Positions 33,571 to 64,000 of a stretch of 64,000 nt of DNA are shown here, in pieces. Positions within the stretch are counted from its first letter, which is position 1; each line of letters opens with the position of its first letter. A program made the translations under genes and the position numbers. Source of the DNA: Owenia fusiformis (taxonomy: Eukaryota; Annelida; Polychaeta; Sabellida; Oweniidae); NCBI GenBank assembly GCA_903813345.2, contig CAIIXF020000010.1, forward strand, positions 13,025,181-13,089,180, in the 5' to 3' direction. The notes beneath the pieces were generated by a model. That model was not told the DNA's origin. It ran no database searches and saw only the letters and a program-made list of their open reading frames with translations.

Positions 33571-36500
33571 ATGGACCAAGAGACTGCACAGATTCTGTTT
33601 AGTGAAGGAGCAGTGTTAGTTCTGCTTGATGTACCGCCAGGTACAGAGTTTGGTATAGATTATAATGCCTGGAACACTGGGCCTAACTTCAAGGGAGTCA
33701 AGATGATTCCCCCTGGTATACACTTTGTTTATTACAGGTAAGACGAATGATTTATGTTCATCTACATAGTAGTCTCCACTAATAATTTTTTGTTCTTACA
33801 ACTGTTTTTTTTTATTATTAAGGACCTTATTCAAGAACAGTTATCTAGTGAACATGTCAAAATAATGATTTTAAAAAAGATCGTTTTCGGTTGACCCCTG
33901 ATTCATATACAGATTATAGGTGAATATAATTACATGTAATTTGATAAGAATGGTATCATGAGTGTCTCAATAACAAAAATATGTTTTAAATTTAAACATA
34001 TAATTCTGCATTTAGGATGATATCTATTTTATATTTTGTTTATTTATTTACTCCAGTGCAAGAAGTGGGCGTGGCAGTGATGTGGCTCCAAGATCGGGCT
34101 TCTTCTACAACTTCAAAGCAAAAGAAGTGTTGGTGAAGAAGTGGGACAGACTACAAGAAGGTAAAAGCCTCGCATGCTACAAGTACATGTATAGTCAGTA
34201 TACTGTATGCTGGCTCAAGAATAAAGTAACAACATTTTTACATGTATAGCCTTTTCATGAAGAAATTGCATTTTAAAAATTGATTGAAATGATGTGTTTT
34301 CAATAACGCCGTCCTTACATTACATACACGCAAAATATATCCCTTGGACCCGGAAATAAAAAGTGATTGCGTTTTGTGGACGCAGTGCAAGCCATACTCA
34401 TACTATCAACTTTGGATGAATGATTTGAGAAAGATCTTCCCTTCAATCTTTTTATTTCGTCAGAATCCACTAAGTAATTGAAGGAAATTCTATTTCTAAA
34501 AGAAATAAAATTTTCTTTCGAAATTCACTTCCCGGAAGTTGATTTCTGATCGAAATAGTACAAGGCATGTGATAAGACAAAAAGTTATCCAATACTCAAT
34601 TTCCGAGCAGTAATCAGTACGAATCCTACGATTGGCCGGTAGCTGAAGACCTGATTCAAACCATTTTCAATTGGTCAAGTGCGATCACGTGATCATTATT
34701 TGAGACTGCACATGCGTAAGAAACTGAACCAAAAAATTGAACCTCGCGCAGATTGCCCCTAAACTAAACATGCTAAAGCAAAATCAATAGCAAATTGCTT
34801 CGAAATTCGCAAATAAAATGTATTTTTAATGGGTGTATATAAGTTATACCTCACAAGTGAGGGCATCTGTATCATTCAATGACATACTAGACTCGCAAGA
34901 ACGCTGATTGAGACCGATAAATAGCAAAAGCGGTGATACAAAATTTCATCAATTTATTACATCCAGTGTAAAAGCGCGACTTTGAATTCCCGGGAACATT
35001 TTTTCAAGGGACGCAGTTTTTTGAGGGGAGACGCATTTTTTGAAAATCATTACGTCCCAGGGACGCAATCTTGGACAAGCCTACTGAAAACACTGGAAAT
35101 CATAATACGATAAAAGCCCCAATTTTCAAGGTGCCCTAATTTTCACTTGTTTCGCTGAAGAGGTTAGACTGTGAAATTAAAGGCAAAGTGAAAATTTGAT
35201 TTAACATTGAATTCAATTGGATGTTTCTTCAAACAGTGGAATTTAATGCCCATGAAACATTTCAGATTGACAAAATAGTGAATTTTTTTGCCAGCGAAAA
35301 TTTGGGCTTTTACAGTAGAACCTATTCCATGTCCTTGTAAATCTAATACTAGCTCTGAGACCCAGGAATTATTTTGATATAATGCACTGAAATGCTCAAA
35401 GCTGATTTGCTGAGATACAGCTACATGTACAGTTGGCATATTTGGATTATGTATCTTTACTGAAAAATCTGCTGCTTAAATCTTCAGAATTTTGTTTTGA
35501 GAAAATATTAAAATGATAATGCTTCAACTTAATGCTTTAACCAATGGTTAGTCTCCAATTATTTTGTAGATGGTATTCTGGGTTTGGCTGATGGTGGTTG
35601 GTGTTGAGCCGTTGGTGTTTGCCAAGTTTGGTGTAACAAATGGGAGGTGGTGACATTTTGCATGTTAATGCCTTGTTTTTGCCTTGCAGATATCACAAGT
35701 GGAGGTGTCTCACAGGAGGAGGTTGAGAGGATACAGAGCAACAAGAAAGAACTGGACAGATACCTTGGAGCTTACCCCTATGAAAGGTAAGCTTGTTCCA
35801 GTCATTGAAAATGCAATGTGTTTACATGCATATGATAACTAACAGGTCATATGGTTAATATATAGTAGAAAAGTAGTATATATGTCAAACTGTGTCCACA
35901 ATTATGTTTATCTTCTCTACACCAAAACATCATTTGAAAGAGTGGGATTTGCTTACAATACTTATTGAAACAAGTACCCTATGAAATATAAATACCGTTC
36001 AAATGAAATAGAATTTCAATTTAATGGATGTAATAAAGGATAAAGAATTAATAGAACACTCAGGAAAACTTGGATAAACTGAGAATAAATTAGGATGAAA
36101 TGCCAACTGGGAAATATGCTATCACCGGTGCTGGATGTGGACAGTGGAGAATATAAACATTCACATTTAGTCTTAAATTTTCAGCTATAAGAAATGGGTT
36201 TCAATGACTAACCACATCACCGAGCCAGTAATGGAGTCCCTTCAACCCATCAACAAAACCATCTGCTCTGTAGCCCAGTTTGTCTCCGAGAGGAGTGATA
36301 CCAAGACGAGGAAAGAAGATGCAATTAAAACAACAGACAAAACTACAGTGTCACATGATGACGATGATCCAAGATTACCAAAAATGGACACGATTCCTGG
36401 TACTCAAATACGGTTCTCTGAAATTCCTAAAAAGAAATACCCGGAAGGTGCCACTCCAAGTGAAATCACTAAATATAGTATTGACTCAAGTTATGTGACA

Positions 36501-36920
36501 GTGAAGATCATTCAATCTAAGAACCTTCCAAGTAATCATATTCTAGGTGAAGTACAATTTGCTTTTATTTGTTTTCTAATTGGACAGACATATGACGCAT
36601 TTGAACAATGGAAGCTTCTGGTACACATGTTGTGTACGAGTGAAGAGGCAATGGCTGACTATCCTGCCCTCTATAATGAATTCATATCAATGCTACACTT
36701 TCAAATCAAAGACATTCCCGAAGATTTTTTCATTGATATTGTCTCCAGGAACAACTTTCTTACATCTACTCTTCAGCTGTTTTTTTCTAATCTAGAAAGT
36801 TCTGGAATTTCTGAGAACGTTCTACAAAGAGGGTTGAAATTCAGAGATAACCTTACCAAGAGGTTTAAGTGGGATTTTACCACTGAGTTAGACGAGGATG
36901 CTCCAGTTGTAGTGGAATGA
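33571..36920 (+). CDS. AAR2: AAR2 splicing factor homologue, complete
   Basis: AAR2 is a U5 snRNP assembly factor that holds the Prp8 RNaseH and Jab1/MPN domains before Brr2 binds. Four exons join in frame: 33571-33737, 34057-34160, 35690-35786 and 36185-36920 (TGA). They give 367 residues; the human protein has 384. Recognisable segments are the N-terminal domain with [20 protein letters not shown] and [15 protein letters not shown], then [20 protein letters not shown] and [15 protein letters not shown]. The helical C-terminal domain has [69 protein letters not shown] and [21 protein letters not shown] linker of about 40 residues ([15 protein letters not shown] and following) is the least conserved part, as in relatives. 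The ATG follows GACCGGAGGA and begins the conserved N-terminus. Confidence 0.97.
35575..35683. repeat. Dispersed repeat with TGTAACAAATGG core
   Basis: GGTTGGTGTT / GTTTGCCAAGTTTGGTG, then TGTAACAAATGGGAGGTGG and TGACATTTTGCATGTTAATG, lie directly before AAR2 exon 3. Related copies are at 36960-37010 (AAATGGCAGTTGGTGACATT, ATGCATGTCAATGCC) and 43385-43515. An inverted GCCAACC-rich version is at about 42670-42790. Confidence 0.55.
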
Positions 36921-47787: not shown

Positions 47788-50700
47788 GTAAATCGATCGT
47801 ACTTTTGGGTTTACATGTACATAAATTAGCAGAAATACAGAACCGTCAGGTATGTACTTCCAAAAAGAAAAAATACTCAAAGTACTCCAAATCAGAGCAT
47901 AAGGTAAGGTCATAATTCACAGGCTTGCTATGTCATTCTGACAGTCAAAGCCCCATTCTGCCTTGTAAGTATGGGAGAAACTGGTAGAATAACATGATAT
48001 CCTAGAGTATGAAATAAGTTCATGACTTACAAACGCATATTCGTAAACACCTTTCGTAAGTTAACTGTTTTCATCATCTTGTATCCAAGCGGAACAAAAA
48101 ATAAATGCGAATGATTAAAAGTTAAAGTAAAAATACTATCATGATATGTCAAAATAAAACCAGTCAGACACATAATTCATGTCTCTGAATCAGTATATGG
48201 TCCACGTGACATGAACGATAAGGATGCCCCATCCGCAACGGGGTTCGATGATCAGGTAAGACGAGATCCGTCCAGTGCATGATTTACAATAAATCAGTAA
48301 AGTGTAATACATATATGCGATGTTGTTTCGATAGAGCAAGAATATGGCGAATGAAACTCCCAGCAGCAGTCGACCCCAATTGAAGAAAAGGCCGTCCTTT
48401 TCCATTCCTTCATCTTGGTAGGTATTACCCAGGGTAGGTATATTGCATTCATAAATTGCCTTGCGTGTGGGTCCTACATCTAGTATTAGGCTAGAGCTAC
48501 CTAGCTAAAAGCTTCAATGTTTTCACCTGACATGACCTCATCCCTCAGGTAAAAATCAAGGTGAACTATTTATTGGCTTTGAATCAAACGTTAATTTCTA
48601 TATCTCATTAGGCCAAATGCATTGAAATTGTATAGCTTTGACTATCTAATTAAAACATTTTGAACAGTTCCGGGCAATCTCAATTTTATGATACACCATT
48701 TAGATTTTACTGTTTATGTAGGGGTAAAAGCTTTAAACAATTTCGCCCAGTCCTATCATTAAAGCTTAAAATTTCATCATTCAAACTGTCTCTCAACATG
48801 CTCAAATAGTGCTTTAGCTCACATGCTAAAAAAACTTCAACCATGCTTTAAAAGAACCAGGGAGTTGTGTTGTTTATTCATTCAGTGGGTAATATGATCA
48901 CACAATCTTTCGGTTCAACGTGAAAGATCGTAACCCAAAATCTAGAACTCTTGAACGAGAGAGGCTCAAATTCAAACCCTCTTGGCCCTAAATTATCTTC
49001 AAATACAAATATTACCTTTCAATTCCACAATATACAGAAATGGGTACCACCATCCCAAAAGGAGCCCGCAATGCAGTTTGCATAAGCTAGCCAAAAAAAT
49101 GATCTCGATCTAATGTTTCCCTTTGGATTTTCCCTTCATAAAGAACCATCACTTTGGCTTTAGTCTATGATGACCACTGCTGACAAGGACAAATCAATGG
49201 CAAGCACTAAGAGAGAGAGAACCAAAAGCTTCCAAGACCTCATATCGGCAAATTGGTAGGTGTCTGAAAGTTGCACAAGAGACCGTTTGCACGTTTCACC
49301 CAATTGCAAGCTTGATGCACCTTTGCAAACTGCCAAGTCAATTAAACTGCATGCTCTACTTTTAACAAACCGATAGATAAAACGACAATCCAGTCGACTG
49401 GTATTGGAATTGATATACCATATACTTCACCAATCAACAATACCTAAGGAGATATCCAAACTTCTGCAAGCGTATTGCAAGAACTAGATTCAGTTTGCAT
49501 GTTGAACTAAGTGATTTAGTTGGTTTGGCTTTTATCCAGTCGGTTATTTTAAATTGCTTGAACATCAAAATTAACTGACAAAGTTTCCCGGGCACATGCA
49601 CAAAATGCTTTCGCTAAAATGTTCTTAATTCTAAACTGCAGGTTAATATTTCAGGAAATTTATGAAGTTATTATTTGCTGTAGATTCCTCTTTCTAACAA
49701 TTACTGCTGGCCGTAGGATATATGGCATTTATGAAATACTCATGAGTATTTGGAATATGTTGCCCATATCTTCATGACCAGCCATATCTTCATGATCAGC
49801 CATTTCATCTTGCTATAATTAATAGTTTAGCCTAGACATGATATTTACACTTTACATGGTATCTAATTGTTTGTGTGTTCCCGCTTTGGTGATTGACAAT
49901 TTAAATATGCAATGTAGTCTGTTAACGGTGCACTGTAAACTATGTCAGTAAGTGTGGCCCGTGTTGAATGTGAAATAGATTTGATGTAAAATGTTGTCCC
50001 TGTTGACTGTGTAATATATTTGATGTAAAATGTGACCCCTGTTGAATGTGTAAAAGATTTGATGTAAAGTGTTTTCCCTGTTGACTGTGTAATAGATTAT
50101 GTAAAATGTGACACCTGTTGAATGTGTAATAAATTTGATGTTAAGTGTGGTAAGTGTGGCCCCTGTTGACTTTGTAATATATTTGATTAAAAGTGTGGCG
50201 CCTGTCGACAGTGTAATAGCTTTGTATAAAGTGTGGCCTTTATTCATGTTTATTGAATGTGTTTGGTCCATGTATGCTGTGTAATAGATCTGATGTGAAG
50301 TGTGACTCATGTTGACAGTGTAATAATTTTGTATATAAAGTGTGGCCTTTGTTGAATGTGTTTGGTCCATGTACACTGTGTAATAGATCTGATGTGAAGT
50401 GTGACCCTGGTTGACAGTGTAATAGCTTTGTATAAAGTGTGGCCTTTGTTGAATGTGTTTGGTCCATGTACACTGTGTAATAGATCTGATGTGAAGTGTG
50501 ACCCCTGTTGACAGTGTACTAGCTTTGTATAAAGTGTGACTTTTGTTGAATATGTTTGGTCAATGTACACTGTGTAATAGATCTGATGTGAGTGTGACCC
50601 CTGTCGACAGTGTAATAGCTTTGTATAAAGTGTGGCCTTTGTTGAATGTGTTTGGTCCATGTACACTGTGTAATAGATCTGATGTGAGTGGGACCCCTGT

Positions 50701-53700
50701 CGACAGTGTAATAGCTTTGTATAATGTGTGGCTTTTGTTGAATATGTTTGGTCCATGTACACTGTGTAATAGATCTGATGTGAGTGTGAACCCTGTCGAC
50801 AGTGTAATAGCTTTGTATAAAGTGTGGCCTTTGTTGAATGTGTTTGGTCCATGTACACTGTGTAATAGATCTAATGTGAGTGTGACCCCTGTCGACAGTG
50901 TAATAGCTTTGTATAAAGTGTGGCCTTTATTGAATGTGTTTGGTCCATGTATGCTGTGTAATAGATCTGATGTGAAGTGTGACCCATGTTGACAGTGTAA
51001 TAGTTTTGTATAAAGTGTGGCCTTTGTTGAATGTGTTTGGTCCATGTACACTGTGTAATAGATCTGATGTGAAGTGTGACCCTGGTTGACCGTGTACTAG
51101 CTTTGTATAAAGTGTGGCCTTTGTTGAATGTGTTTGGTCCATGTACACTGTGTAATAGATCTGATGTGAAGTGTGACCCCGGTTGACAGTGTAATAGCTT
51201 TGTATAAAGTGTGGCCTTTGTTGAATATGTTTGGTCCATGTACACTGTTTAATAGATCTGATGTGAAGTGTGACCCTGGTTGACAGTGTAATAGCTTTGT
51301 ATAAAGTGTGGCCTTTATTGAATATGTTTGGTCCATGTATGCTGTGTAATAGATCTGATGTGAAGTGTGACCCCTGTCGACAGTGTAATAGCTTTGTATA
51401 AAGTGTGGCCTTTATTCATGTTTATTGAATGTGTTTGGTCCATGTATGCTGTGTAATAGATCTGATGTGAAGTGTGACTCATGTTGACAGTGTAATAGTT
51501 TTGTATAAAGTGAGGCCTTTGTTGAATGTGTTTGGTCCATGTACACTGTGTAATAGATCTGATGTGAAGTGTGACCCCTATTGACAGTGCAATAGCTTTG
51601 TATAAAGTGTGGCCTTTGTTGAATATGTTTGGTCCATGTACACTGTGTAATAGATCTGATGTGAAGTGTGACCCCTATTGACAGTGCAATAGCTTTGTAT
51701 AAAGTGTGGCCTTTGTTGAATATGTTTGGTCCATGTACACTGTGTAATAGATCTGATGTGAAGTGTGACCCCTGTTGACAGTGTAATAGCTTTGTATAAA
51801 GTGTGGCCTTTGTTGAATATGTTTCGTCCATGTAAACTGTGTAATAGATCTGCTGTGAAGTGTGACTCCTATTGAATGTGCAATATTCCTTAATATGTGC
51901 ATTTTGGCCCCTGTTGACTGTGTAATATATTTGGTGTAAAGTGTCGCCCACGTTGACTGTAATACTTACGATGTAATGTGTGACCCATGTTGATAGTGTG
52001 GTAGGTTTGATATAACACAATATTTTTACAAAGAATTATCATTTGGAAACATTTCAACTGTTTGGTAAGTTATTCATTTTAATTTATGTTATTGTGAATA
52101 TCTAGACTGTTTTGTTTAAATTAAAATATGAACCTTTAAGTAACGCATTATTTTGAAAAGAAATATGCACACATATTGTGAATAAGTAATATGATGTTTT
52201 TAAAGTATATAATTGTAAATTGTCGAATTTCTGGAAAGTAATTTCTCGAGTGTTACAAATGCATGTACATGTATAATGATGTTGATAAAATGAAATAGTT
52301 CAAACTGTTAATTGCAAAATCATGTCAGACTCTCAAACTGCAGGTAAAATTGTCACATACGAATTTGACAAATTGATTGATGATACGTTTCTTTGCTTTC
52401 AGTAATGTGGAAAATTGTTCATAGCATTAAATAATTCTTAACACTTTTTAGACATCATCTTGTGTGGTAGGGTGTGATCTCCGAAATAGTTACCAATGCA
52501 TAAGACCTGATCCCATGTCAACTTCCAGTAATTATTTTGAGATGAAGGTCTCATCTGGAAATTGTAAATAGATTTATAAAATATGTGCAGTAATCTAAAT
52601 GAACATGAAGAACACCTGGGAATATGATTGATACTTGGTATCAACATTAATTCGATCTTGATTTTTATTCATGTTCATTGGACCACTTTAATGGATCAAT
52701 AGACCCTTTCAAATAATCACGACCCCTTTTCGTAAACTAAGGACACTAGGGTTTATTGACAATATTTATGATGTCATACTTTACAGGCACACTGTTTGGA
52801 AACAATTTAGTCTAAGTTTAATCCTATTTCTGCTCTGAAGCTGTAAGAATGACACCATGACCTAAAGATGGCAGGCTTTACTAAATTGGTCTATTCATGC
52901 ATTTGTCAAGATCCATGATAAAATTATTAACATTCTGTCTATTAGCACCATTCCCAAAATCAGTCCTGGGGTAAAGAGAGATAGATGAAAACTATTATCT
53001 ATATCATTATAAACTATTATCAATACTCATTCATTCATTTGCAGTGCAGAGCAGCTGAGTCGAGTTACCAAGCCCACAGACATTGAAGATGTTCTCTTCA
53101 ATCTTCTCAAGAACGGAGATATGGTCAGCATCCAGAAATACTGGGCTGTAAGTTTGATAATTTTCTTGTATACTTTGGATTCAAGGTTTGCATGATATGA
53201 TTCGCATAAGAATGCAAACTAAATTACGTTTCCCCACTAATATACAGAGTGTTTCATATGTTTGCACCCCCCATAAACTCAGACACGTAGCATTGCCACC
53301 CTATCATGTTATGTATCATTTTGTTTCGCTTAGAAAGTTAAATTCCCCTACATGGATTTGGCAACCTTAGCTCCCCCATTGAACTACGTGTTAAAGCCTC
53401 TTTACATTTGAATTTTTTATAACTTATAATATTGATGGAATCCTCTATTACTATAGGTCGAAAATTGTTGATAAATTTGATGAATAGGCCTATTTGAAAA
53501 TCGTCATTCCCATGTAAACCAATGGGAAATAATGGGTTCGGCGCAAATCAGAAATCAGGATATCTATTCAGTAAAAGATTCAGCAAAAATATTTTTATAT
53601 AGAAAATTGATTTGTCTAACTTTTTTGTACACAAAGTGTTTAGTTTACTTGATGAATACTAAAGTTACAGAGCTTCAAAGTAATTTTTGATGTGTTATTT

Positions 53701-56700: not shown

Positions 56701-59700
56701 TCTCATAATGAATGATTGCTATGTTTCATTAGAAGTGACTGTTAGAACCCATGACTGTTTTGTCAAATATCCTGAGGAAAATTGATTTTGCCCCTTTAGT
56801 TCATTTTTAACAAGCACAGACCACACACAGGGTGTAATTTTGTTGATGTCTTAGCAGTATATTTGTTTTAGATCATGTTTAGTCTGACCAAAGGATCTTG
56901 GAAACTTAACATAACATTTTATCAGGATGAATTTTATTTTTATCTCTGCATCTATTGCATTCTCTTACTAAGTTATTTCTGATCGTTAGCTTTGAGTCTC
57001 ACTCTGGTATCTCATCTAATGGAGCATGAAAGCACCCCCTATGACATCACACAATTCACACGATCGCTTTATTTAATTGTTAAAGCACTTTACAACTTAT
57101 TCAAGTTAACAGTTTACTATGTATGTAAACATGGTTAATTAAGCTCATTCTCTCAATTATTTTTATTTGCCCCGGGTGCCTTGATTTCCCGTTACTATGG
57201 CAACCATTTCTTATCTAATATTTCTGTTAAGCTAAATATTTTTTTGCTGAATAAATAAGACATTCTATGCTGCACATTCTGTGAAAATTTCATTAGAATA
57301 CATTGAAAAATAAAGAAATTAGAAAGGTATTATGAGAACTTTATGATCAACTCTCATATATGCGACTGTTTTTTCTTGTAACTTTACCAGCGATAATTTA
57401 TTTCAGACATTCGATTGGTGACACAACAAAGCCATTCTGTATCCAGTCTTGTAGTAAACCCCTCACATATGCGCTTGCTATGAGTGAGATAGGGGTAGAC
57501 GAAACACACAAATATATCGGCCAAGAGCCAAGCGGTCGTTCCTTCAACGAACTTACACTAGATAGTCGCAGTAAGTCACATTTGAGAATATGCAGGAACA
57601 TATAAAGTAGTTATTAAATGAATCGGGAATGTGTCAACATAGTACATTTGTAATTGTATTTTATACTCCAAGTATGCGATAGCTATCGTATGTAACTATT
57701 TGATATTCAGATGGATAGACAGAATCTGTTTGAAAACACTATGAATTCCCGGCAGTCGCTCCACCACTTGTTGGGGTTTTGTTGGTTTCTTCTTGAACTA
57801 CGCACCATATGTGTTTCAGATAAACCGCACAACCCGCTCATAAATGCAGGTGCGATAGTTACAGCTGGGCTTCTGAAGAGGAAACTTCCCATTTCAGAAA
57901 GATTCGAATATGTGAGTCTTGTATGCAAATGTCTGATTCAATTTGCTCATAACGCAATGATAGTCAGGATGTCAATTTGTACAAAAGTTTACTTTCTTAT
58001 TAAGTTAGTTATGAAAATATTTTAAAGGACAGATACTTATATCATTCATATAACTTGTGATTTTTTAAAACCGACACACAAAGTCCATTCGATTTTTAAA
58101 ATCCCCAGTTTGATTTAATTTTAGGCCTCACAAATGTACGAACTTTTAGCTGGTAGTGAATATGTCGGTTTTAGCAACTCAACATATTTATCAGAAAGAT
58201 CAACAGCAGACAGGAACTTTGCTTTGGGATATTACATGAAAGAACATAAATGTTTTCCCAATGGCGCAGATCTGGTAGAAACCCTTGAGTTTTACTTCAT
58301 GGTGAGTCGCAGTCAACAATCTCACAATACTCACTCTAACTCACATAGCACCATTTTTTTTTATATTTAGACACAATTAATGTACAACATTCTCGCGGGT
58401 GGTGAGTACACGGGATTCAGTAATCCGACATACTTAGGCGAGAGAGCAACGGCTGACAGAAACTTTGCCCTAGGCTATTACATGAAGGAATACGGTTGTT
58501 TTCCGGAGGGGTCAGATCTGATGGAAACATTAGAATTTTATTTCATGGTAGGTTAGACTAACATATTTCTTGTTAATAATTTTAACTTTCCTGGACTGTT
58601 GGGACTAGTAGTTTTAGTGGAGTGACCTCTTTCTCACTCTAGGAACTCATTAACGAAACATTCTATTTACACTCCCCTCCATAAGTTTGGCAACCTTTGC
58701 TCCCCCATTGAACTAAGTGTTAAAGCCTCTTTACCTTTGCATTTTCATTTACTTAACCTGCGGTGAAAATACTTTTACTATTAATGGAAACGTAATTTGA
58801 CTTCATTTCCAATACCTCCAAATTTTCTCAATTTTTTCCTCAATTACAATAGGTCGAAAATTGGTTTACATGGGAATGACGATTTTCAAAAATCTATCAA
58901 ATTTATAATACCAAAATAGTACATTCTTAAAAAATGACAGACGAGCTTGAACTGGATGCGAATCGATTGAAGGTGGTTAAAATCACCCTTCAATATCGGA
59001 CATCACCGTTGAAATACTCCTTCATCCTTCATCCCATTTGCATCTTGTTTACAAATAATCTTAATTCGACCATATTATATTACTTCAAAATTGATTAACC
59101 ATAATTCCGTGCAAAAACATCCAAAACAAAAAATGGTTCTGACTAAGCAAAAAATTTCCAGGCATTTATAATAGCTTGTCTTTAGTAGGCTGTATTTAGT
59201 AGTGTTTATTTCAGGACATTTTAACTCGATCACATCCATTTTTAAAATTTTAAGACGGCATTGAACATTTTGGAAACTAGTTTGGGGTGACAATAATGTT
59301 TTGCAAGATAGACTCCTAAAGACAATGCTTCATTGCAGTTGTGTTCCATCGAGATAACAGCAGAATCTGGAGCTGTTATAGCGGCCACTTTAGCCAATGG
59401 GGGGATTTGTCCCATTACAGGAGAAAAAGTCCTCTCAGGAGACGCTGTCAGGAACACTCTTTCGCTTATGTATTCATGTGGAATGTATGATTATTCTGGT
59501 CAATTTGCCTTCCACGTAAGTTGGTTTACATAGGTTTAAGAATCAGTTATCACCAATTTTGTTTTATTTTCTCAATTGTTTTACCTAAACGACAGGCATT
59601 AACTATATATGCATCGATATGTGCTTATGTTTTTCAATTTTGCAGGTTGGCTTACCAGCTAAGTCAGGCGTAGCTGGGGCAGTTCTTCTGGTTGTTCCCA

Positions 59701-62131
59701 ACCTAATGGGCATTTGTACCTGGTCCCCTCCCCTTGATCAGCACGGCAACAGCAACAGAGGGATCCAGTTTTGTCAAGTAAGCTGTTAATTCTGGTTGAA
59801 TAGCTACAATATTTCGTTTTAACGACGGCAAGATTGCTTTTGATTAAAGAAACGATCCATAACTCCAAAAAAATACTAAACTGTCCCTAATCAGAAACAT
59901 ATGTTCTGTGCAGGAACTTGTGAACAAGTTTAGCTTCCATAACTATGACAACCTGAAACACACAACTAAGAAGATGGACCCTCGAGTGAGGAAGGGGGAT
60001 ATCTCTGCAAATTCCATCGTTACCTTGCTCTTTGCTGCCGCTAATGGAGATCTGACTGCCATGAGAAGGTATTCATTTAGTATTCTTGAGATATAATGGG
60101 AAAATACTTTTGGATGGTCGGCATAATGAGTAAAATTAAAAAACGTGGATCAAATTGTCTTATTTCGGAACAATGTTTAATTTTGTAATGCACTTGTGTA
60201 ATCTACTCTTATTCTAACATTTTGTTATTCCCACTCATTTAACATTATTTGTGTGCATTGGAAAATATCGACTCTATTAATTTTAACATTTGTACAATAT
60301 TTAATTTGAAAATGTGGGTTGCAATATCACATTCTTTGAAGTTAAAAAGTTGAGCTACATTCATCATTATTGTTGAGGAAAGCTAATTGTGTTCTATGAT
60401 CGATCCCTGTGATATACCATGATTCTCAAATACACACGGTGCCTCAGAAACATTAAATTATCCATTAACTCTAACACCCTATAATTTAAAATACATGTCC
60501 TAAGATCAAATTTCACCCACTGGTTGATCCACTCATCCTCCAATCAAGCAAATATCAATGCATGGAAGGGAAAATGCATCAAATGTGTCCTCTGCAGCAG
60601 TAAAATCCCCCGGAAGTTATTCTCTGCTCAATATGTTCAGCTTTAATGTGCTATTTATTTCAACGAATCCGAGCTAGTTTCATACACCAGCTATGGTGTA
60701 CTATTATTACTTGAATTACCCTTCTGAAATAATAATGATAAATTAATTTTTGTGGAAGTGAAATGTGTGGAAGTGAACCATAAATGTGTTTTAGATTTGC
60801 CCTCTCGGAATTGGATCTAACTGTATGGGTGAAGTGTTATTCAAAGAAGTGGACAATAAATGTGTTTAGATTTGCCCTCTCGGGTATGGACCTAACTGCA
60901 TGTGTGAAATGTTATTCATAAAAGTGAACCAAAAATGCGTTTTAGATTTGCCCTCTCGGGTATGGACCTAACTGCATGGGTGAAATGTTAGTCATAGAAG
61001 TGAAGCGTAAATGCGTTTTAGATTTGCCCTCTCGGGTATGGACCTAACTGCACGGGTGAAATGTTATTCATAGAAGTGAATCAAAAATGCGTTTTAGATT
61101 TGCCCTCTCGGGTATGGACCTAACTGCATGGGTGAAATGTTATTCATAAAAGTGAACCAAAAATGCGTTTTAGATTTGCCCTCTCGGGTATGGACCTAAC
61201 TGCATGGGTGAAATGTTATTCATAGAAGTGAACCATAAATATGTTTTAGATTTGCCCTATCGGGTATGGACCTAACTGCTGCAGACTACGATGGTCGTAC
61301 AGCGCTGCATTTGGCGGCAGCAGAGGGGCGGATAAAAATTGTCCAGTTCCTACTGGAAAGATGTAAAGTCCCTGTTGATCCAAAGGACAGGTGATCTTTA
61401 TACTTCTTTGCTATCATTATAAATATTGACGTTGCTCATAAAGCATGAGTGTGTGCGTTACGTTTTTTTTACAATTTCAAGTTTCTTCTGTGATTTATAT
61501 CGTTTTTGAAATATATAAATTGACTTCTATAAAAGTAGAAGAGAAAGTATCGATTTCACTAGAAAATCAAATGAAGAATATGTGCACTTGAAGAAAAACA
61601 CTCTGTTAAAAAGTATCACAAAAATAATATTATTACTATACGTGTACTTGGACTGGAGAAGCCTCCCTATTTATACATAGGTGGGACTTTACTCCTCTGG
61701 ACGATGCAAAGAAATTTCATCATGGTGAAGTTGAGGAGTACCTCCGAAAATACAGTCCTGGGCAGATTGAAAGTTCTGAAAACGACACTACTCTTAAAGA
61801 GTTTATTCAATCCGTGATCCTGTCAGACTAAACTTAGATGAGTAATGCGTGTAGGTATGAATGTGATGTACGTGTATGTATTCTACAGAAACAATATTAA
61901 GATAATACCATTCGTGATTAAAATACAATGGCGAACAAACAGATCATAACCGCACCCTTTGGTTCATGTATTTCCAGATGGGACTTTACGCCGGTAGATG
62001 ATGCTAAGCGCTTTGGACATGCAGAGATTGTGACCTATATAAACAAATATATTAAAGGAGACATTGACATAGGGTCTCTCTCTATGGAAGAGTCTGGAAT
62101 AGAAGCCGACGATGAGTCAAATTCAACATAA
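47717..62131 (+). CDS. GLS: Glutaminase (GLS family), complete with alternative exons
   Basis: It hydrolyses glutamine to glutamate and ammonia, in mitochondria in animals. Core exons are 53045-53147, 54881-55020, 55357-55486, 56143-56222, 57407-57570, 57820-57911, one of 58125-58301 or 58371-58547, 59339-59515, 59646-59777, 59914-60068 and 61250-61390, then 61681-61831 or 61978-62131. With the 49167 first exon the protein is 576 or 577 residues. The N-terminal helical region is followed by the beta-lactamase-like glutaminase domain: [20 protein letters not shown], catalytic S-x-x-K in [19 protein letters not shown], the Glu/Asn/Tyr ligands in the duplicated exon, [40 protein letters not shown] and [16 protein letters not shown]-terminal ankyrin repeats follow ([20 protein letters not shown]). 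Strong mitochondrial presequences are not evident in the candidate first exons, so a further 5' exon is possible. Confidence 0.95.
48344..48417 (+). CDS. GLS: Glutaminase candidate first exon 1b
   Basis: ATG opens 24 codons ([20 protein letters not shown] then IPSS) ending TG|GTAGGT in phase 2, which joins 53045 as TG|T (Cys). An in-frame TAG lies 12 bp upstream of the ATG, which favours a true first exon. It is basic and Ser/Pro-rich. A minus-strand frame of 71 codons over it is its shadow. Confidence 0.55.
49167..49255 (+). CDS. GLS: Glutaminase candidate first exon 1c
   Basis: ATGATG opens 29 codons ([18 protein letters not shown] then [11 protein letters not shown]) ending TG|GTAGGT in phase 2, compatible with 53045 (TG|T, Cys). 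An in-frame TAG lies 6 bp upstream. Together with 1a and 1b it makes three ATG exons in 1.5 kb that all fit the same downstream exon. Confidence 0.55.
49940..52015. repeat. Minisatellite, 96/97-bp unit, about 20 copies
   Basis: The unit reads TGTTGACAGTGTAATAGC, TTTGTATAAAGTGTGGCC, TTTGTTGAATGTGTTTGGTC, CATGTACACTGTGTAATAG and ATCTGATGTGAAGTGTGACC. Successive GGTCCATG positions (50461, 50558, 50654, 50750, 50846, 50942, 51039, 51136) show a 96- or 97-bp step. Both ends (49940-50220 and 51860-52015) are degenerate. Because 96 is divisible by 3, the array stays open in several frames on both strands, including a 202-codon minus frame. These are repeat artefacts with no conserved protein. It lies in the long intron before glutaminase exon 53045. 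Confidence 0.95.
53244..54222. mobile_element. Inverted-repeat element of about 980 bp in a glutaminase intron
   Basis: The left arm ACAGAGTGTTTCATATG, ACCCCCCATAAACTCA, GTAGCATTGCCACCCTATCAT is mirrored at the right by ATGATAGGATGGCAATGCTAC, TGGGGGGGGGGGTACATACA and AATGAAACACCCT. The arms are about 75 bp. The interior holds an AAAC microsatellite (53782-53840). Parts of the interior (TTGGCAACCTT, GCTCCCCCATTGAACTA, GTGTTAAAGCCTCTTTAC) recur at 58675-58920. No transposase was seen. Confidence 0.75.
53782..53840 (+). repeat. AAAC microsatellite
   Basis: About fourteen consecutive ACAA/CAAA tetranucleotides (CAAACAAACAAACAAA and so on) run without interruption inside the inverted-repeat element. 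Confidence 0.95.
55215..55335 (-). repeat. Dispersed repeat, copy C (inverted, truncated)
   Basis: ACTGCGAGTAGAAATACTTTGATTTACGTCATTA followed by CATATTTGAAATCTACTTGTAAAATTACATC (quoted here as two short adjoining parts of the block) is the reverse complement of the 3' third of copies A (4287-4660) and B (26803-27160). It ends about 20 bp before the acceptor of glutaminase exon 55357. Confidence 0.75.
55495..55742. repeat. Compound foldback element, copy 2 (inverted relative to copy 1)
   Basis: GATCTGTAAAATGAAGCC, TGATTGGTCAGTTCTTGTGC, GTACCAATCTGTATTGCTAC and TTTGCACTTCAAATCATTCA are the reverse complement of 19478-19795. The internal hairpin (CTACTGAGATTGTTCCC against CATTCTCAGTAGC) is kept, but the AAGTGCAATACAGG arm on one side is shortened. 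It begins only 9 bp after glutaminase exon 55357-55486. Confidence 0.85.
56223..57406 (+). other. GC-AG intron of the glutaminase gene
   Basis: Exon 56143-56222 ends CAGAG and the intron starts GCAAGT, a classic GC donor (AG|GCAAGT). Only this border gives the family-conserved DGQ-R-HSIGD junction with exon 57407; the nearby GTAATC would put a stop in the next exon. The intron carries a mariner-like foldback. Confidence 0.85.
56399..57352. mobile_element. Mariner-like foldback element of about 950 bp
   Basis: The left end ATA-CGAGGGTTGATCATAAAG, TTCTCATAATA, and the right end TATTATGAGAACTTTATGAT, CAACTCTCATAT, are inverses. The arms extend for more than 200 bp (CCTATGAAATTTTCACAGAA, GGTTGCCATAGTAAC, CTTGATTTCCCG). 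The flanks read ATA on both sides. A related end, TGAGGGTTGATCAATAAG, lies at 28138 in NIT2. No transposase remnant was seen. Confidence 0.8.
58125..58301 (+). CDS. GLS: Glutaminase exon 8a (mutually exclusive candidate)
   Basis: This 177-bp exon (59 codons, phase 0-0) covers the segment that in human GLS holds Glu381, Asn388 and Tyr414. Here they are the Glu of YLSERS, the Asn of ADRN and the Tyr of LEFYFM. It reads [20 protein letters not shown] at the start. It differs from exon 8b at 15 of 59 residues, mostly outside the ligands. It is separated from 8b by only 69 bp. Confidence 0.9.
58371..58547 (+). CDS. GLS: Glutaminase exon 8b (mutually exclusive candidate)
   Basis: This is a second 177-bp, phase 0-0 exon for the same segment ([20 protein letters not shown] at the start, LEFYFM at the end). 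The Glu, Asn and Tyr ligands are kept in YLGERA, ADRN and LEFYF. Its acceptor is TTTTTTTTATATTTAG and its donor GTAGGT. Including both exons would duplicate 59 residues in the active site, so one per mRNA is expected. Confidence 0.9.
58665..58925. repeat. Fragment related to the 53244-54222 element
   Basis: GTTTGGCAACCTTTGCTCCC, CATTGAACTAAGTGTTAAAG, CCTCTTTACCTTTGCATTTT and AATAGGTCGAAAATTGG repeat interior blocks of the element at 53350-53520. The terminal arms are not evident here. Confidence 0.7.
60785..61249 (+). repeat. 76-bp tandem array copying a splice acceptor and exon start
   Basis: Six units precede glutaminase exon 61250. Each carries TTTTAG|ATTTGCCCTCTCGG, GTATGGACCTAACTGC, then TGGGTGAAATGTTATTCATA and GAAGTGAACCAAAAATGCG. 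The exon-like starts fall at 60795, 60870, 60946, 61022, 61098 and 61174, and the real one at 61250, so the step is 75 or 76 bp. The exon-derived part is 30 bases and matches the real exon with about one mismatch (CCCTC for CCCTA); unit 1 is more diverged. Unit 2 has TGTTTAG rather than GTTTTAG. Confidence 0.95.
61681..61831 (+). CDS. GLS: Glutaminase alternative last exon 13a
   Basis: Joined as AG|G (Arg) to exon 61250-61390, it reads [20 protein letters not shown] then [13 protein letters not shown] and ends [10 protein letters not shown]-stop. It completes the last ankyrin unit and adds a tail of about 27 residues. A possible ATTAAA signal sits at 61917-61922, before exon 13b. Confidence 0.85.
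61917..61922 (+). terminator. GLS: Proximal polyadenylation signal candidate ATTAAA (exon 13a)
   Basis: ATTAAA lies 86 bp after the exon 13a stop and before the 13b acceptor. Its use would tie the choice of tail to 3'-end processing. Confidence 0.4.
61978..62131 (+). CDS. GLS: Glutaminase alternative last exon 13b
   Basis: Joined as AG|A (Arg), it reads [20 protein letters not shown] then [13 protein letters not shown] and ends EADDESNST-stop. The ankyrin part is homologous to 13a, while the tail is unrelated and acidic. The acceptor is GTATTTCCAG. A distal AATAAA lies at 62359-62364. Confidence 0.85.
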
Positions 62132-63283: not shown

Positions 63284-63729
63284 TCAAGGAGAGGCTATCA
63301 ACTGAAAGCTTGCACTACTTTTGAATGCAGCTGTATCCTCATACCCTTGTGCAACCAACTGCCCTCCCGAAACTCTTAAGTAGTCCCCAGTAGACGAGTG
63401 TAATGTTATAAATCCTGGCCAAAATTCATCTTCAACAAATGTGAATGATGATTCTTGTAGAAAATTGACATTAGAATCATGATTCTCCTCGTTCTGAAGT
63501 GAGACGGTCTGAGCAGTTACATGCATCACGTTCCCCCCTTTGTCATCAGAAATTAGCGTGACCGAGTGGTTTAACCGCGTGAGCCCTGGTGTTTGGAAAT
63601 AGAAGGCTTCCAAAGTGGCCGTTTGGTTAGAGAGCCAGAGTTGGTTTGTGTTCATTACCCCAATGTAGCTCGAGTTATCACTTTTGGGCTGGAGATAGTA
63701 AGGGCCATCAAATGAGTCCAACGAGGGTC
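63284..63729 (-). CDS. Last exon of a gene with an AbfB-like beta-trefoil domain (partial)
   Basis: The exon opens after TTATAG and runs 146 complete codons to a TGA at 63286-63284. It encodes one whole trefoil-like domain: LDSFDGPYYLQPKSDNSSY near the start, TPGLTRLNHSVTLIS in the middle, then FWPGFITLHSSTGDYLRVSG and DTAAFKSSASFQL near the end. The FITLHSSTGDYLR / AAFKSSASF pattern matches the repeats of alpha-L-arabinofuranosidase-B carbohydrate-binding domains (CBM42-like). In animals such domains are usually attached to other modules; the upstream exons lie beyond the right edge. Sequons NSS, NQT and NHS suggest a secreted protein. Confidence 0.8.
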
Positions 63730-64000
63730 CTATAATACAGAATTGCAGATAGGCTGATATATAATGAATCTTGCAACTTTTTCAAGAGTACAAAATCAAA
63801 TTCAACACTCATGCACAACTTTATACACGCTAAACACAAAGGCAATTATGGGCAAATATCCCCATCGTCAGAATGAATCGTTTTAGGTGTAACATGAAGA
63901 ATACAATGTCACATAATACTTTGGAAAATATTTAAGCGTTTGAACCCATATGGGCTGAGGTTGAGATCATTAAATTAGGCCTTGTATTGGTGGAGTTTTG
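63730..64000. other. Intron upstream of the AbfB-like exon
   Basis: This is the sequence between the AbfB-like exon's acceptor and the window edge. No further exon was recognised. Confidence 0.5.

Follow-up and report, generated by a model that had tools for sequence, protein, structure and literature searches.

Does a tandem array of copied splice sites in front of an exon act as a splicing device, or is it simply tolerated? This question is raised by a glutaminase gene of the annelid Owenia fusiformis (contig CAIIXF020000010.1). The window, i.e., the whole 64-kb stretch of DNA analyzed here, carries on its + strand part of a GLS-type glutaminase gene, namely catalytic and C-terminal exons, and an ankyrin-encoding exon is preceded by a tandem array of 76-bp units that repeat its acceptor border. 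Based on our analysis, the array is likely a "mirage"-type minisatellite that turns over neutrally while splicing probably stays at the exon-proximal site. Rather than a special switch, it is probably repeat noise that the gene tolerates.

The host gene was characterized using a partial glutaminase protein joined by hand from window exons. This protein matched the kidney-isoform glutaminase 5uqe in a PDB search (E 3.1e-149) as well as the Pfam entries Glutaminase (PF04960, E 3.3e-86) and ankyrin (PF13637, E 1.1e-12). It shows the GLS-type layout of a glutaminase domain followed by ankyrin repeats. The features around the array are the following, with their basis in parentheses:

59914..60068, + strand: exon preceding the array, donor AG/GTATTC (sequence, paralog comparison)
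60770..61279, + strand: 76-bp tandem array across the intron end and 30 nt at the start of the ankyrin exon (Tandem Repeats Finder, TRF; unit alignment)
61250..61390, + strand: authentic glutaminase exon with ankyrin sequence, 141 nt (paralog identity, PDB, Pfam ankyrin)

TRF reported the array with a period of 76, 6.7 copies, 91% matches, and a score of 838 (threshold 50), and found no other array between 54000 and 62500. Judged by this score, it is not a chance match. In each unit, 30 nt copied from the exon start are followed by approximately 46 nt that end intron-like, acceptor included. The exon copies start at 60795, 60870, 60946, 61022, 61098, and 61174 in the decoys and at 61250 in the authentic exon. 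A preliminary description had reported six 76-bp border copies; TRF and alignment recovered six units, but their lengths are, in order, 75, 76, 76, 76, 76, and 76 bp. The exact copying of the first 30 exon bases, which it had stated for all units, nearly applies to units 2–6, whose copies are identical to one another and match the authentic sequence at 29/30 positions, whereas unit 1 has diverged (6/30 differences from the authentic copy, 5/30 from units 2–6). Likewise, the acceptor TTTTAG is not universal, since unit 2 reads GTTTAG, but the acceptor AG and the phase are retained in 6/6 decoys. The single units read as follows:

60795..60869, + strand: decoy unit 1, 75 bp, exon copy 24/30, frame open into unit 2 (unit alignment)
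60870..60945, + strand: decoy unit 2, acceptor GTTTAG, product ending in TACVKCYS and a stop (unit alignment, translation)
60946..61021, + strand: decoy unit 3, product ending in TAWVKC and a stop (translation)
61022..61097, + strand: decoy unit 4, product ending in TARVKCYS and a stop (translation)
61098..61173, + strand: decoy unit 5, product ending in TAWVKCYS and a stop (translation)
61174..61249, + strand: decoy unit 6, product ending in TAWVKCYS and a stop (translation)

The single 17-residue peptide formerly given for units 3–6 is thus exact for units 5 and 6, while units 3 and 4 deviate. When the donor at 60068 was joined to each decoy in turn, translation met a stop in 6/6 cases, located 165–469 nt upstream of the donor at 61390; the reading frame of unit 1 continues into unit 2 and then stops. 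The core of the preliminary description was therefore reproduced: the array amplifies an exon border with the phase kept, and every decoy is predicted to end translation ahead of the ankyrin repeats. Separately, an AATAAA hexamer occurs at 60855–60860, at the end of decoy unit 1, and is the only one in 60761–61300.

A genome search with a 606-bp query, which skips very common words, revealed a single location for the full query; its terminal 155 nt, comprising 14 intron nt and the exon, were also present in two paralogs. On the basis of this search, a dispersed element was rejected, as nothing but these 155 nt matched elsewhere, and only in those paralogs. A false expansion of one or two copies during assembly is hardly to be expected. 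The array is known from one assembly, and the copy number of the PGBD5 repeat in lancelet differed between two sequence versions (PMC3902484), yet there are site-specific differences among several of the units, and other loci carry distinct arrays.

Splicing to a decoy would create an exon of 217–596 nt instead of 141 nt. According to the usual rule, stops that far upstream of a splice junction mark an mRNA for nonsense-mediated decay (NMD). Given the distance of 165–469 nt from the junction at 61390, NMD would therefore be expected for decoy transcripts. A stable ankyrin-less enzyme, which had been proposed as the product of decoy use, should be less likely than NMD. In mammals, glutaminase occurs as the isoforms KGA and GAC, of which GAC has no ankyrin tail and arises from an alternative terminal exon. 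Like GAC, the predicted decoy product would be without the ankyrin tail, but through a premature stop in a lengthened internal exon and not through an alternative terminal exon.

Acceptor strengths were compared with a rough matrix trained on 33 sites near match starts in five further glutaminase genes (P2–P6, see below), picked by script with a preference for pyrimidines. The training sites score 1.9–13.1, and the matrix is biased toward strong sites and may include wrong picks. Units 1–6 scored −0.64, 0.71, −2.28, 1.49, 0.50, and −2.28, and the authentic acceptor 1.09; the corresponding acceptor in P2 and P3 reached 3.72. All seven acceptors are weak in this matrix. Acceptor strength was rejected as a sufficient cause of site choice: the authentic site ranks second of seven, and for this reason the local acceptor does not explain a correct choice.

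The explanation we favor, a tolerated minisatellite, places the choice elsewhere. An ordinary tandem duplication may have happened to span the intron/exon border; it would then have grown and been partly homogenized, with the authentic border remaining as the copy closest to the exon body. Splicing would occur mostly at the exon-proximal site 61250, because under exon definition the donor downstream is expected to pair with the acceptor closest to it, which yields the 141-nt exon. Leakage to a decoy would end in a stop and NMD; hence the array would cost little and could persist as neutral or slightly harmful variation. After a border duplication, whether of a donor or of an acceptor, the authentic site is the one closest to the exon body, and this may explain the tolerance of such arrays.

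Alternatively, the array could be a regulatory device whose decoys divert transcripts to NMD or to ankyrin-less isoforms, with the copy number tuning the share. The preservation of AG and phase in six decoys that all give early stops would suit such a function, as would an authentic acceptor that is weak and scores below one of the decoys. Nevertheless, we regard a device of this kind as unlikely in view of the related genes, the exon borders elsewhere in the genome, and comparable arrays in lancelets.

Searches recovered six glutaminase genes that contain these exons, the window gene being P1. P2 and P3 lie within ~80 kb on contig C10, P4 on C10 at 6.8 Mb, and P5 and P6 on C1. Exon 61250–61390 shares 83% and 82% DNA identity with two cluster paralogs, and exon 3 gave a single match each in P2 and P3. 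Neither TRF nor a comparison of border sequences detected the 76-bp array in P2–P6, which speaks against a regulatory role. Within these five genes, 1/104 conserved block ends touches an array, namely in P6, where a repeat of 45 bp × 2.0 covers the donor border of the corresponding ankyrin exon.

Exon borders elsewhere in the genome were surveyed at the 232 ends of 116 protein kinase and ABC transporter exon matches, with match ends standing in for borders. The kinase part covered 91/144 matches (60 regions with 65 matches, and 20 regions with 26); 53 kinase matches, many with long open frames, were left out. The ABC part included all 25 ABC transporter matches with their flanks. TRF arrays with a period of 30–200 were counted, and control points were set 200–500 nt outward. 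Arrays covered 4/130 and 1/52 of the kinase ends and 0/50 of the ABC ends (total 5/232), compared to 18/513, 8/189, and 6/200 of the control points (total 32/902; Fisher p = 0.41). Exon borders are neither clearly favored nor spared by arrays, and a modest excess or deficit is compatible with these counts. Coverage of a border by an array, as seen at the glutaminase exon, is no more than what is general in this genome.

The view of the array as a device specific to glutaminase is not supported on two counts: P2–P6 do without it, and unrelated exon borders carry similar arrays at about the rate of their flanks. A wider variant would hold that ~2% of exon borders (5/232 sampled ends) lie in decoy arrays and that the number of glutaminase decoys sets an NMD leak which lowers the output of this paralog. 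If this were true, array length would be an inherited, fast-mutating dial on glutaminase, but we consider it improbable.

The five array-covered ends were found at L025 (both sides), L042, L058, and L108, and each array repeats the border with its splice signals. The kinase exon L025 (C5:68850-70350) is flanked by an acceptor-side array of 86 bp × 3.8 and a donor-side array of 71 bp × 2.0. L042 has a donor-side array of 54 bp × 3.9, in which GTAAGT is kept in only 1/3 extra units, and L058 an acceptor-side array of 51 bp × 4.8. At L108 (C4:22425590-22427600), donor-side units of ~80 bp follow a kinase exon and reach the end of the fetched stretch; AAG/GT is kept in some of them and lost in others. 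A blastn comparison of match ends with the adjoining 600 nt flagged 11/232 ends (7/130, 2/50, and 2/52), of which five were the counted TRF arrays. The flagged but uncounted matches at L059, L102, and L075 are 12–16 nt long and may be due to chance, whereas L049 (30-nt copy of the exon end) and L076 (59-nt, 83% copy of the exon start) are border copies unreported by TRF. A kinase exon at L070 (C10:2256300-2257800) is tandemly duplicated, with copies ~200 nt apart, possibly a mutually exclusive pair; it was not counted.

Repeats of this type have been described before. "Mirage" minisatellites lie over intron/exon boundaries of lancelet Adh3, the globins BflGb6 and BflGb9, troponin C (TnC), and PGBD5, the latter two having been added in PMC3902484, and these mirages, Adh3 included, are reported not to disturb splicing. 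This is a further point against a regulatory device. Unit sizes are given as 10–72 bp in Adh3 and 150–160 bp in BflGb6, and in mirage clusters such as that of BflGb6 inner units are homogenized and edge units divergent. The glutaminase array has the same properties: a tandem unit of minisatellite size (76 bp) spans an exon/intron boundary of the gene, the splice AG is present in 6/6 decoys, and the exon copies of units 2–6 are identical while edge unit 1 has diverged. With Adh3, the likeness extends to a metabolic enzyme as host; the difference is that the host here is a glutaminase gene, in an annelid rather than a lancelet. Canestro et al. 2002 reportedly deals with Adh. The earlier statement that no metabolic enzyme with such an array had been described cannot be maintained in view of Adh3, to which the globin, TnC, PGBD5, and donor-side human IFI6 cases can be added.

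In human IFI6 (gene 6-16), minisatellite repeat units are used as splice donors, according to the passage in PMC4526556 that cites Turri et al. (1995). IFI6 and the glutaminase gene have in common that a minisatellite creates several copies of an exon-border splice site; however, in IFI6 these are donors with reported use, whereas the border repeated here is on the acceptor side. Human genes in segmental duplications contain internal tandem repeats at exon–intron boundaries (PMC2812944). These resemble the present array in their minisatellite size, in their position at the exon borders of recent paralogs, and in varying between such paralogs, but they are transcript-backed and linked to new introns. 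Further literature searches brought up no additional case. For annelids, a limited literature search yielded no report of border-spanning arrays, which is weak evidence of absence. A loosely related case is earthworm metallothionein, for which the accessible part of PMC12783039 describes minisatellites in introns and additional exon 4 copies that are missing from the final transcript; a border-spanning array was not seen in that part of the account.

The array could also be an intermediate of intron or exon gain, in which a unit comes to serve as a new boundary of an exon or intron, a model proposed for the lancelet globin mirages. The units do contain a possible donor after the exon copy, namely ATGGGTGAAnTG in 4/6 units and ACGGGTGAAATG in one. 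However, a 34-nt unit exon would shift the authentic frame (2 + 34 nt leads to phase 0 instead of the required phase 2), and no sign of a recruited unit was seen. We thus rate this explanation as very unlikely.

In favor of a tolerated mirage-type array, we counted the unit anatomy, the absence from P2–P6, the donor-border repeat in P6, the border arrays at other loci, and the early stops. Several points weigh against it. The use of 61250 is something we infer from the sequence, and with a weak authentic acceptor that ranks second of seven (1.09 vs. 1.49 for unit 4), leakage is conceivable. In the survey, ends of hidden Markov model (HMM) matches serve as proxies for borders, the control points share loci and, within a locus, depend on one another, and the counts are low; the ABC exons had none of their 50 ends in arrays. 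The glutaminase genes are not a random sample. Finally, the 54-bp unit of L042 keeps the frame without stops, and NMD is therefore no general rule for such arrays.

A single array of this kind is ordinary, but border arrays in several unrelated genes of this annelid would extend the lancelet "mirage" phenomenon. They would also allow the spliceosome's choice between near-identical sites to be examined in many natural settings, and if the exon-proximal site always wins, this would support exon definition as the reason for the tolerance of duplications.

Further exons of the glutaminase gene in the window are the following:

59646..59777, + strand: glutaminase catalytic-domain exon (paralog comparison)
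61681..61831, + strand: alternative terminal exon a, own stop TAA (sequence; conserved in paralogs P2 and P3)
61978..62131, + strand: alternative terminal exon b, own stop TAA (sequence; conserved in paralogs P2 and P3)

Each of the two terminal exons encodes an end of the ankyrin region, with one match each in P4–P6. A catalytic-domain exon is also tandemly duplicated, at ~58131–58307 and 58380–58550 (profile positions ~118–174). This duplicate (~58131–58550) is doubled in P2 and P3 too, and the copies are possibly mutually exclusive exons.

Neither the Rfam scan (gathering threshold) nor the tRNA scan of the window gave a match. Elsewhere in the genome, the mir-2 family had four matches within 5.2 kb of contig C3, three of them over the cut-off, and a Caulobacter control matched below the cut-off; mir-2 is not known outside protostomes, and the matches thus point to a protostome and away from a lancelet. 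A GFP family search, also aimed at a possible lancelet origin, gave no match here or in the control genomes, and a COX1 search gave none, so that the mitochondrial genome seems to be absent from the sequence searched. In the window itself, an open reading frame (ORF) at 63284–63781 on the − strand has a weak AbfB domain match (21.1 bits, below the Pfam cut-off of 22.8). The ORF at 36177–36920 contains the AAR2 C-terminal region (Pfam PF05282, E 1.7e-50), and TRF reported a large 97-bp minisatellite of ~16.7 copies at 50249–51875.

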